A program made the translations under genes and the position numbers. From a virus, in the IMG/VR virus record IMGVR_UViG_3300035701_000093, positions 1-40,898 of that record: a DNA stretch of 40,898 bases; one strand, given 5' to 3'. This document shows positions 21,647 through 37,799 of the stretch, piece after piece. Position 1 is the stretch's first letter; each line of letters begins with the position of its first letter. The notes beneath the pieces were generated by a model, which was not told where the DNA came from, made no database searches, and saw only the letters and a list, made by a program, of their open reading frames with translations.

Positions 21647-21972
21647 TACTTTCGCTCTCGCAAAAACAGCCGCAGATACCTGCCTTCCAGATTCCAGTCA
21701 TCAACAAAAAGCACATCGAACTTTCGCGTTCCGTAATAAATCACATCCGCCTCTCTTATCTCCTCGGTTTGTGGCAGGCAGAATCCTTTGTAGTTCGCCT
21801 CCACTTGCAACTTACCGTAGAGTTGCCGTTCGCTTCCACTCAATGCCTGCAAACGGAACGGAAGGTCAACTATCAGGTCATCTTCTGATTCCGTCCACGA
21901 ACCGAAATCGTCAGGCGTTTTCGTAACACGCGCGACTGTAACAGCCGAATTCAGCATAGAGGCGATACTCAT
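21646..21972 (-). CDS. Head closure / head-tail joining protein (108 aa)
   Basis: MSIASMLNSAVTVARVTKTP, then a beta-rich body ending VIYYGTRKFDVLFVDDWNLE and GRYLRLFLRERK, is the usual layout of SPP1 gp16-like head-closure proteins. Position between connector and gp10-like genes agrees, although a methyltransferase gene now separates it from the connector. Confidence 0.75.
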   Translation of the reverse strand: MSIASMLNSAVTVARVTKTPDDFGSWTESEDDLIVDLPFRLQALSGSERQLYGKLQVEANYKGFCLPQTEEIREADVIYYGTRKFDVLFVDDWNLEGRYLRLFLRERK

Positions 21973-23132
21973 TTCGCCAACTCCGCCTTATGTCCTGTGA
22001 AGTTCTCCCATCGCTTGACCGCAACATCGCAATAGTGAGGGTCAATTTCCATTGCGTAGCAAATGCGGTTGAGTTGCTCGCAAGCGATGATGGTCGTGCC
22101 AGAACCGAGATAAGGGTCAATAATCAAATCCGCTGGAGAAGAAAAGTCCAAAAGAATTGCCCTGCATAATCCTACTGGCTTTTGTGTTGGATGAACCCGT
22201 TTTATGAGTTCTTCTTTGCGACTACCTTCGCGTCTCAATCCTGCCCAAAGATAGCGATATAATTTTGCTGGACGGTCAAATGATGTCCACAATAATTCAA
22301 CATCGGCAAAGTTATTCGTTCCTGTTTCCTTATCCCAGACAATCCAACAAGATGAAATAGGCAGTTTGTCCGCAAAATAGTTTGCTCCAAAGATAATTTG
22401 TCTATTGGCAAGATTCAAAAGGTAGCGCGGGTCAAAGGGTTTATCATCGCCCTGAATTGGGCGATAATAATTTGCAGAAACCCATTTACCGCCACCAACT
22501 TTACCGAAATGAGTCATTCCGCCACCGCCCACTTTTCCCATTTTCACAATGCTAATACCATAAGGCGGGTCTGTGAACACCATATCCGCCTTCTTCCCCG
22601 CCATCAACTTTTGCACGTCCGCCTCGCAAGTGCTATCGCCACATAGCAGGCGATGCTCACCGAGAAGCCACAAGTCGCCGCGCTTCGTTATCGGCTCTGG
22701 CACTTCGGGGATTTCGTCAGGGTCAGTCAAACCTTCTTTCACAGGCAAAAGCATCTCAACTTCCTTATCGCCGAAGCCACATAAACCGAGGTCAAAATTC
22801 AGGTCTTTCAATTCGCCGAGTTCAAGCGGCAATAACTCCAAATCCCAATCGCTCAATTCGTGTGTCTTGTTATCAGCGAGTCGTAGCGCCTTTACTTGTA
22901 TCGCAGTCAAATCCGCCGCTACGTGAACAGGCACTTCAGTCAGTCCGAGTTCTTGCGCCGCCTTCCAGCGTGTATGACCTGCAATAATCACGCCTTCGGA
23001 ATCCACCACTATCGGCTGACGGAATCCGAATTGCTCAATACTGTGAGCCACCGCTTTGACCGCGCCGTTATTCTTTCGTGGATTTCGCGCATACGGTTTG
23101 ATGTCCTCAATTTTACGCATCTCTACTTTCAC
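21969..23132 (-). CDS. ParB-domain DNA methyltransferase (387 aa)
   Basis: Residues about 1-100 form a ParB/Srx-like domain (IKPYARNPRKN, VIIAGHTRWKAAQELG), followed by an N4/N6 amino-methyltransferase: catalytic DPPY (about 185) and the SAM-binding motif DPYLGSGTT near the C-terminus, so motif IV precedes motif I (beta-class order). It should methylate adenine or cytosine amino groups in DNA, probably against host restriction. It sits inside the head-tail connector genes with 4-base overlaps, an unusual late location. It is not similar in layout to the methyltransferase at 36.5-37.8 kb. Confidence 0.9.
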   Translation of the reverse strand: MKVEMRKIEDIKPYARNPRKNNGAVKAVAHSIEQFGFRQPIVVDSEGVIIAGHTRWKAAQELGLTEVPVHVAADLTAIQVKALRLADNKTHELSDWDLELLPLELGELKDLNFDLGLCGFGDKEVEMLLPVKEGLTDPDEIPEVPEPITKRGDLWLLGEHRLLCGDSTCEADVQKLMAGKKADMVFTDPPYGISIVKMGKVGGGGMTHFGKVGGGKWVSANYYRPIQGDDKPFDPRYLLNLANRQIIFGANYFADKLPISSCWIVWDKETGTNNFADVELLWTSFDRPAKLYRYLWAGLRREGSRKEELIKRVHPTQKPVGLCRAILLDFSSPADLIIDPYLGSGTTIIACEQLNRICYAMEIDPHYCDVAVKRWENFTGHKAELAK

Positions 23133-35119: not shown

Positions 35120-35191
35120 CTATTGTAAAATAATCAACACTATGAATACTACGAACGCTACCAATCCTATCAATCCTATGAGTATAGGCAT
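35120..35191 (-). CDS. 23-aa hydrophobic peptide
   Basis: ATG 35189-35191 follows GAAAGGAGCGGCTGA, right after pentanucleotide array 1. The whole product (MPILIGLIGLVAFVVFIVLI and ILQ) is one transmembrane helix. Good ribosome site and spacing support translation; size resembles small membrane toxins or holin-like peptides. Confidence 0.6.
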   Translation of the reverse strand: MPILIGLIGLVAFVVFIVLIILQ

Positions 35192-35209
35192 TCAGCCGCT
35201 CCTTTCAAA

Positions 35210-35324
35210 AAACCTTACCGCACCTCACCTTACCAAACCCTACCTCACCCCACCTTACCCAACCATACCCTACCCAACCCCACCTGACCTGACCTAACCT
35301 TACCTCACCCAACCTTACCTAACC
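35210..35324. repeat. Pentanucleotide array 1, NNACC x 23
   Basis: Twenty-three consecutive 5-base units all end in ACC with two variable leading bases (for example TTACC, GCACC, TCACC, AAACC). The array begins after TTTCAAAAA and ends at 35324, touching the stop codon of the gene at 35325. On the transcribed strand it reads GGTNN, so GG occurs every 5 bases. Confidence 0.95.
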
Positions 35325-35888
35325 TCATTTTTCTTTCTTGAATTCCGTCACGATAAACCTACCAAACGAACCGCCTTTTGTGGGTCTGAAATCGCCGATG
35401 CCTATTTTCTTACCTGCGGTTGCGAGAATATCGCTGACCAGTTCCTGTTTGAGAATCGTTTCGTCAACTTCCAAATGGAAAGATAAATTCCACTGGTCAA
35501 GGCGCGGTCTGTGACGCACCACACGCCCCTTTGTTGCAGGAATAACAACCGAACGAGAATCCACGATGTAATCCGTCCTGTGATGCGAAATCGCGCGCTC
35601 CTGAACAAAGATGCTTGCGGGAACTATGCCCGCCGCGCTCTTCTTGCCTATCTTGAAATACTTTGCCGCGTGAAACATCGCCCGCTCTATATGTTCAGCG
35701 GGCGTGTAAAGTTCACCCTTGCCATCCTTATCAGGCAAACGATATGCCGCCTCTTCGGCATCCTTTTCTCTATCGCCCATCGGAATACTTGCACTCGTCC
35801 CACCTTCAACTTCGCCCTGCTTTTTATCGCTGAATCTATGCATAAGCAGCGGCGAAATTCCCTCAATCTTCACCCTGTATATCAACAT
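35325..35888 (-). CDS. Protein of unknown function between the two arrays (187 aa)
   Basis: ATG 35886-35888 (MLIYRVKIEGISPLLMHRFS) follows AAAGGAGACTGTG. A beta-strand pattern at the start and a Gly-rich segment near the C-terminus (KIGIGDFRPTKGGSFGRFIV) recall the RAMP/Cas7 style of RNA-binding proteins; similar phage proteins are, as far as I recall, labelled hypothetical. The middle has ELYTPAEHIERAMFHAAKYF and a basic RRHRPRLDQWN-like stretch. The arrays abut it on both sides, which suggests it may bind the repeat, but that is inference. Confidence 0.75.
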   Translation of the reverse strand: MLIYRVKIEGISPLLMHRFSDKKQGEVEGGTSASIPMGDREKDAEEAAYRLPDKDGKGELYTPAEHIERAMFHAAKYFKIGKKSAAGIVPASIFVQERAISHHRTDYIVDSRSVVIPATKGRVVRHRPRLDQWNLSFHLEVDETILKQELVSDILATAGKKIGIGDFRPTKGGSFGRFIVTEFKKEK

Positions 35889-35906
35889 CACAGTCTCCTT
35901 TCAAAA

Positions 35907-36046
35907 AAACCTCACCTTACCAAACCCTACCCAACCAAACCAAACCGCACCAAACCTCACCTTACCCCACCAGACCTGACCTAACCTTACCTCACCCCAC
36001 CTGACCATACCCTACCACACCAGACCATACCTAACCTTACCTCACC
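35907..36046. repeat. Pentanucleotide array 2, NNACC x 28
   Basis: Twenty-eight units in perfect 5-base phase, all ending ACC. It shares two blocks with array 1 (CACCTTACCAAACCCTACC, and a stretch GACCTGACCTAACC onward) and the same AAGGAG-TTTTTT junction on its promoter-distal side. It forms the leader of the gene at 35325-35888. Confidence 0.95.
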
Positions 36047-36369: not shown

Positions 36370-36527
36370 TACTTTTTCTCCTTTCGCTTTTTTTGAAAGC
36401 GTATTCTGAAGTGATTGAATTTCCCCCGGTTGTCATAAAACACTGCAACATCTAAGTTATTCTCATAACAAAAGTCGCCAATTTCCTGTATTATGCGCTT
36501 GAACCGCTTTTTTTGTTCTTTTTTCAT
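36369..36527 (-). CDS. 52-aa basic protein
   Basis: ATG 36525-36527 overlaps the stop of the methyltransferase gene (AAATGA) with AGGAG upstream; its TAA overlaps the next ATG. The product is very basic (MKKEQKKRFKRIIQEIGDFC at the start, KKRKEKK at the end) with a small central beta segment (NLDVAVFYDNRGKF). Overlap at both ends supports it. Possible nucleic-acid binding. Confidence 0.65.
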   Translation of the reverse strand: MKKEQKKRFKRIIQEIGDFCYENNLDVAVFYDNRGKFNHFRIRFQKKRKEKK

Positions 36528-37799
36528 TTCAGCAAACTCCTCTGCCCCGCGCCCACATCACGCGCCGTTAGCCCCTGTAATGGCTTTGCGAGGCGCTTGT
36601 TTATCATCGCCTCGTATTCGCGCGCGATTTCTATGCCGCAATAATCGCGTCCGAGTTGCGCGGCTACAGCGAGCGTAGTTCCGCTACCAGCGAAGGGGTC
36701 AAGCACAAGGCACTTGCCACTTCCGTCATTCCCTTCGCATTTGCAGGTCGGCTCCCAGCCGAGAGTCCTCAGTCGTGGTGCATTCCTATAATAATCCGCC
36801 TTATCTCCCTTGTTGAGGCGCGAACCTTCGCCTTGCGTGCATTTTTTTGTCTTACCTGTAAATTGACACCAACTCAAATCTTCGCCTATTTCAGTTTTTG
36901 TAATTCTTTTCCATGGCGCGGCGCATTTCGGGCAAGCCTTGTGGGATGAGCCTGCCAGTATGCAGCGGCGCGGTAGTTCAGGCGGGAAGGTGGCAAAGTG
37001 TGCCTCTTTGTAGCCGCGAGTTGTCATTTCCCAAATATCAGGTATCCACCAGACATCGCGGCGATTTTTACCCGATTCTTGAGGGCGGACAGGACGCCCT
37101 TCTCTATACATAGAAGTTGCGCCGTAGTGTTGCTGCCCATCGTGTCCACCCATTTCAATATACTTATGGCTTGATTTTCTGATTTCGGGACCACCCCAGC
37201 GATTGAGCGGCGCCATATATTTCTCCTTGATGGCTTCAGAATCAAAATAATAGTGAGCCTTCTTCGTCAGCAAAAAGATATGGTCGTAACTCTTGGTGCA
37301 TCTGTCAGTGCAACTCTCTGGCATATAATTCTTTTTCGCCCAGATGATGTCGGAGCGCAGCCACCACCCATCGGCTTGAAGCGCAAGCGCAACCCGGGCG
37401 GGCATCATACAGAGGTCTTTCGGTTTCAGGTCTCCATAGCCAACTTTAGGAAGTCCTTTCCAGTAGTTGTGCCTACTTGGGTCACATCCTTGATAGCGCT
37501 CGCCGTGTCCAGAAGCGTAAGAGTCTCCCATATTGAGAAAAAGCACACCGTCGCGGCGTAACACTCTCTTGACCTCCCTGAAGATTTCTACGATATGCGC
37601 TACATAAGCCTCTATGGTCGGCTCAAGCCCTAATGCGCAATGCGAACCGTCAGACCAATCAACATCCTGCTCGCCTGCGTATTTGCGCAAGCCCCAGTCA
37701 ATACGGCGGCGATGTGATGACGCATTGAACACATTCATCTGGCATCGCCGCCAAGCCCTCCAATACGTGGCAATAGAGAACACTATTTCGCCAGGTCAT
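36524..37799 (-). CDS. DNA methyltransferase with frame break in the catalytic motif
   Basis: The gene starts at ATG 37797-37799 behind AAAGGTGGCGAA and reads MTWRNSVLYCHVLEGLAAMP onward to VITSPPY, then meets TGA at 37698-37700. One base later the frame continues DWGLRKYAGEQDVDWSDG through the usual phage N4/N6-methyltransferase body: LNMGDSYASGHG, LKPKDLCMMPARVALALQAD, PESCTDRCTKSYDHIFLLTK, RDVWWIP, and SAM motif LDPFAGSGTT. SPPY is catalytic motif IV, so intact protein needs a +1 shift at TAT TGA C. It is either a programmed frameshift, a pseudogene or a single-base assembly error. Confidence 0.8.

Follow-up and report, generated by a model that had tools for sequence, protein, structure and literature searches.

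A probable VIPR locus with two long GGT/NN arrays around a RAMP protein gene in an uncultivated tailed phage

The gene at positions 35325-35888 of the DNA studied here very probably encodes Vipr, and the GGT/NN arrays on its two sides would be the source of guide RNAs against rival DNA; we put the probability that this is a VIPR locus at about 0.93. The locus belongs to a kind that has already been published, and the length of its arrays is what distinguishes it. The DNA (the window, 40,898 nucleotides, IMG/VR record IMGVR_UViG_3300035701_000093) comes from an uncultivated tailed phage with portal, capsid, terminase and DnaB helicase genes. A GGCAGCA-type repeat is found at both ends of the contig (positions 60-317 and 40831-40898), so the sequence may derive from a circular genome, or from a circularly permuted one, with the break falling inside this repeat.

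VIPR, for Viral Interference Programmable Repeat, was introduced in a bioRxiv preprint of April 2026 (PMC13142463). According to that text, the system combines a phage RAMP protein of about 20 kD, Vipr, with vrRNAs in which GGY alternates with a hypervariable dinucleotide NN, and the NN pairs specify a target DNA read as NNxNNx, with a 1-nt skip. In two cases, phage SUSP1 and a prophage of Pseudomonas fulva, the VIPR complex acts as a DNA-binding repressor of transcription that keeps phages in check (PMC13142463). The preprint distinguishes seven types. It gives the vrRNAs 9-16 repeats, a reported range and not a definition, and an invariable folded 3' tail; it mentions staggered, overlapping vrRNAs, and it presents an accessory vap gene beside vipr as typical, not universal. 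The corresponding features of the window, in the order in which they are read on the minus strand, are as follows.

35909-36046, minus strand: array 2, a predicted vrRNA of 28 unbroken GGT/NN units upstream of vipr (exact run by script; lies on the vipr strand; PMC13142463 gives GGY/NN as the mark of vrRNAs)
35892-35908, minus strand: 3' end of array 2, a T-run and the GAAAGGAG Shine-Dalgarno site of vipr (from the sequence)
35325-35888, minus strand: putative vipr, 187 aa, a RAMP protein (Csm3/Cas7-like) with the C-terminal Gly-rich loop GIGDFRPTKGGSFGRF (phmmer, PHROG, AF2, Foldseek)
35212-35324, minus strand: array 1, a predicted vrRNA of 23 unbroken GGT/NN units adjoining the vipr stop codon (exact run by script)
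35192-35211, minus strand: 3' end of array 1, a T-run and the GAAAGGAG Shine-Dalgarno site of the next small ORF (from the sequence; same motif as after array 2)
35120-35191, minus strand: 23-aa hydrophobic ORF MPILIGLIGLVAFVVFIVLIILQ after array 1 (from the sequence)

The protein is a homologue of Vipr and has the RAMP fold. A phmmer search aligned its residues 111-181 with PDB entry 36pp, the "SUSP1 Vipr protein" (4.4e-6); it also matches phrog_4652 (2.6e-20), and a tblastn alignment to AVU07_agp039, the gene of phiSUSP1, spans 96% of the protein at 26.6% identity (1e-4). An AF2 model built from 36 homologues reached a pLDDT of 92.1 and a pTM of 0.87. When this model was compared with solved structures by Foldseek, all 50 of the 50 matches listed came from CRISPR complexes of type III or type VII, Csm complexes for the most part, and the best were RAMP chains of the Csm3/Cas7 type; since the TM-scores are moderate (about 0.4-0.6) and the identities only 8-18%, the comparison demonstrates the fold, not close kinship. 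The G-rich loop typical of RAMPs is present as well, and G159, G163, R168 and G176 are invariant in the 36 homologues. The preliminary description of this DNA, which had been reminded of RAMP proteins by the Gly-rich end, was thus borne out by homology and by the predicted fold. Pfam holds no model that matches the protein and PADLOC reported none; a first single-protein search of viral contigs gave no close relative, and two alignments (A1 and A2) proved too diverse for a pattern search.

The arrays are exact. On the plus strand ACC recurs every 5 bases through 23 units in one array and 28 in the other with no slip, as a script confirmed for what had been described earlier; ACC is intact in 51/51 units, so that the gene strand reads GGT/NN with GGT in every unit. 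The NN positions use 10 and 12 of the 16 possible dinucleotides in the two arrays. No comparable run was found for other trinucleotides at periods 4 to 12 across the whole window, where the only other runs of at least 6 units come from a simple (AGCAGA)n tract and from the GCA repeat around position 100-300. The minus strand reads in order: array 2, T7, GAAAGGAG, vipr, a stop codon joined to array 1, T6, GAAAGGAG and the 23-aa ORF. The TGA at 35325-35327 abuts array 1, and 20 bases separate the end of array 2 from the ATG at 35888, which is likelier to be the vipr start than the in-frame GTG at 35891. The placement of array 1 at the gene's stop and of array 2 in its leader, already pointed out in the preliminary description, therefore stands, as does the common T-run and AAAGGAG. 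The same description took this common end as a sign that array and leader had been duplicated together. Support for this is only partial: two runs of 4 NN units, GA AA TA CA and, near the 3' ends, AG TT AA GA, are common to both arrays, and two such runs arise in 0.1% of shuffles, but most NN letters differ.

Both arrays sit between a stop codon or upstream coding sequence and a Shine-Dalgarno site, and this position invites the reading that they are two-layer G-quadruplexes or translation-control elements in the leaders of vipr and of the next ORF, with Vipr perhaps regulating itself through its own leader. In its favour, the end of array 2 (GGUGAGGUUUUUUUGA) and the first vipr codons (UUGAGGGAAUUUCGCC) could form a 16-bp helix within 35850-35930 on the minus strand (z = -3.1, RNA fold of a single sequence), in which the Shine-Dalgarno site and the start codon are predicted to lie in the loop. 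For array 1 and its tail, however, the predicted folding does not exceed that of shuffled sequences. T6-7 GAAAGGAG follows both arrays; only array 2 folds above chance, and then with coding sequence. Nor does such an element need, or explain, diverse and replaceable NN letters, and many related loci carry several sub-arrays, parted by separators, outside leaders. We consider this reading very unlikely. Its quadruplex form, proposed in the preliminary description, is rejected: nothing was found in its favour, and it leaves both the NN diversity and the link to Vipr unexplained. A scan of the window and of eight Vipr loci against Rfam gave no ribozyme and no other family. Within the VIPR reading, the predicted helix could couple the levels of guide and Vipr.

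How the locus would work we infer from the SUSP1 and P. fulva systems. Both arrays would be transcribed together with vipr on the minus strand and so supply the guide RNAs. Vipr subunits would then coat the RNA, each gripping one GGU and displaying the next two bases, and the ordered NN pairs, with one base skipped between them (NNxNNx), would pair with double-stranded DNA of a rival, be it a phage, a satellite or a prophage, and keep it from being transcribed. On this model the arrays are best read as a lattice for a binding protein, one of the possibilities raised at the outset, and of the two causes considered earlier for the constancy of ACC and its spacing, selection or a copying mechanism, it is selection that holds them. 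What the preliminary description missed is that the variable NN letters are the key feature, because in the VIPR systems described so far these letters form the guide (PMC13142463).

We searched for targets at several levels. Five exact 8-unit seeds from both arrays, in the form with the 1-nt skip, matched 12, 42, 35, 21 and 20 stretches in 2.9 million viral contigs; when extended over the full arrays, these matches reached at most 12/28 or 11/23 units, with no run longer than 9, which is the chance level, and gave no target. For the one seed tested against the phage itself no self target was found, and the arrays showed no clear excess over reversed arrays in the fetched loci (2.4 Mb, skips of 0-3, seed matches included). 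Similarly, a 10-unit stretch from the array of a Desulfovibrio relative (L187) had no match with up to 2 mismatches in 288 genomes of the family. The 1-nt skip at the window locus is accordingly taken from PMC13142463, since no target was found. The composition of the NN letters fits codon positions 1-2 weakly: in a codon-phase test AT/TA was not clearly above background, and GC/CG stood at 1.49 against 1.06. One may then ask if the locus is a relic, with vipr and arrays intact in sequence and their use lost, as the want of a target in viral contigs and of a recognised accessory gene or tail would allow. We find this very improbable: decaying arrays should fall out of phase, whereas here 51/51 units are perfect, and the reading frame is intact and retains the columns conserved in Vipr.

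Other viruses supply further evidence for a VIPR locus. Runs of eight ACCNN units were sought in the 2.9 million viral contigs; at least 120 stretches resulted and were split by NN diversity, and all ORFs of the fetched loci were searched with an iterated Vipr profile. Among the matches listed, a Vipr homologue was found at 43/55 NN-diverse loci and at 5/65 low-diversity, microsatellite-like ones (Fisher p = 4.5e-16, a nominal value because some loci are related); some of the NN-diverse loci with no Vipr match are short or end near the array. Array and vipr lay on the same (GGY) strand in 97/98 comparisons among the matches listed. The co-occurrence check suggested in the preliminary description thus came out strongly positive. 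These counts also rule out, in effect, that the arrays of the window are ordinary microsatellites with a pentanucleotide unit that grew by slippage and later decayed in part: such repeats do occur in viral contigs, where many matches to the ACCNN pattern have only one to three NN types, but a perfect ACC beside 10-12 NN types, together with the preference of Vipr for diverse arrays, is not what they would leave.

Longer arrays follow the same pattern. A scan for at least 20 units in the same 2.9 million contigs returned nine stretches, four of them NN-diverse and five of low diversity; the four contigs with NN-diverse long arrays besides the window (L083, L092, L103 and L271) have Vipr adjoining in 4/4 cases, and none was found at the five low-diversity stretches. 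L083, a viral contig of 111.9 kb, has at least 18 long GGT/NN runs within 14.6 kb, one with 47 unbroken units, and carries by far the largest guide set seen.

It is useful to set the window beside its relatives. The SUSP1 system (Escherichia phage, NC_028808, PDB 36pp) agrees with the window in the family and size of its RAMP protein and in having GGY/NN arrays on the vipr strand, and its record has an 11-unit GGYNN array just upstream of vipr, where the window also has one. The differences are in the arrays and their ends: SUSP1 has shorter arrays (11 units upstream), a conserved folded vrRNA tail and vap1 in the operon, whereas the window has all-GGT arrays of 23 and 28 units followed by a T-run and a Shine-Dalgarno site, with no recognised tail or vap, and the proteins are 27% identical. 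The closest full Vipr relative found in viral contigs, with 43% identity, is that of L092 (IMGVR_UViG_3300036760_000785). Its arrays have 16, 23 and 20 units, and like those of the window two of these lie in leaders, where the array ends in GGTTTTT and A-rich sequence and AAAGGAG come next; it differs in that an ORF like a DUF559 endonuclease adjoins an array, none being recognised in the window. This ORF (L092:3813-4067; Pfam 4.2e-9) lies between two arrays beside vipr and is a candidate accessory nuclease. Relatives in the same Vipr subclade were also found in metagenome-assembled genomes of Desulfovibrio (L187, with a 27-unit array), Mailhella (L186), Opitutaceae, Phycisphaerae and Hyphomicrobium, at 37-43% identity for the main matches. 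The relatives in bacterial genomes use GGC where the window uses GGT, and several have separators between shorter sub-arrays; the viral loci, having been picked by a GGT pattern, give no measure of how common GGT is relative to GGC.

More distantly, VIPR resembles the Class 1 CRISPR-Cas systems (type III Csm3/Cas7) in its RAMP fold, in the row of subunits along a guide RNA and in pairing that is regularly interrupted. It differs in having a single RAMP and neither a cas operon nor CRISPR repeats, and in having guide letters at two of every five positions in place of a continuous spacer. A Class 1 CRISPR-Cas locus was rejected for the window, with no cas family among the scanned ORFs and no repeat-spacer array in the TRF output.

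One related pair of phages shows how the NN letters change. L010 and L082 are 91% and 96% identical in the two 1-kb flanks of the array region. The separator CATTAGCCT and the ACC scaffold are preserved in both, yet their sub-arrays have no match beyond 3 units and no guide in common. Within L010 (4602-5050), seven sub-arrays split by CATTAGCCT resemble mosaics of each other, and AT CT AG AA TA opens two of them. The mosaics suggest that recombination, acting on the GGT scaffold, reshuffles the guides, and new guides may arise when arrays recombine with one another.

The window arrays exceed the reported 9-16 repeats, as do those of other Vipr loci, and each may be a single long guide or the source of several. 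No DNA-binding, nuclease or helicase family, and hence no vap, was recognised among the small ORFs neighbouring vipr; an N6/N4 methyltransferase lies one ORF upstream of it. This gene (36524-37783) is one of two for N6/N4 DNA methyltransferases on the minus strand, the other being at 21969-23132; one of the two has a ParB-like N-terminal domain, and the copy at 36524-37783 is 69% identical over 176 bases to Methanoculleus virus DNA. A tentative proposal, which we think somewhat likelier to be wrong than right, is that the window represents a long-guide branch of VIPR, marked by unbroken arrays of 20-30 GGT/NN units in leaders with no folded tail. Each array would give either one guide with about 50 specified bases, which a long filament of Vipr would read in a single piece, or a set of staggered guides, and translation of vipr would be coupled to the guide.

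For VIPR at large, raw sequence and a large set of loci give independent support to a GGY/NN code that is tied to Vipr in many phages. The L010/L082 pair offers a natural view of guide turnover, with entire guide sets replaced between flanks that are more than 90% identical. The window phage has some of the longest unbroken arrays found, and the question it poses is whether each array makes one long guide or several.
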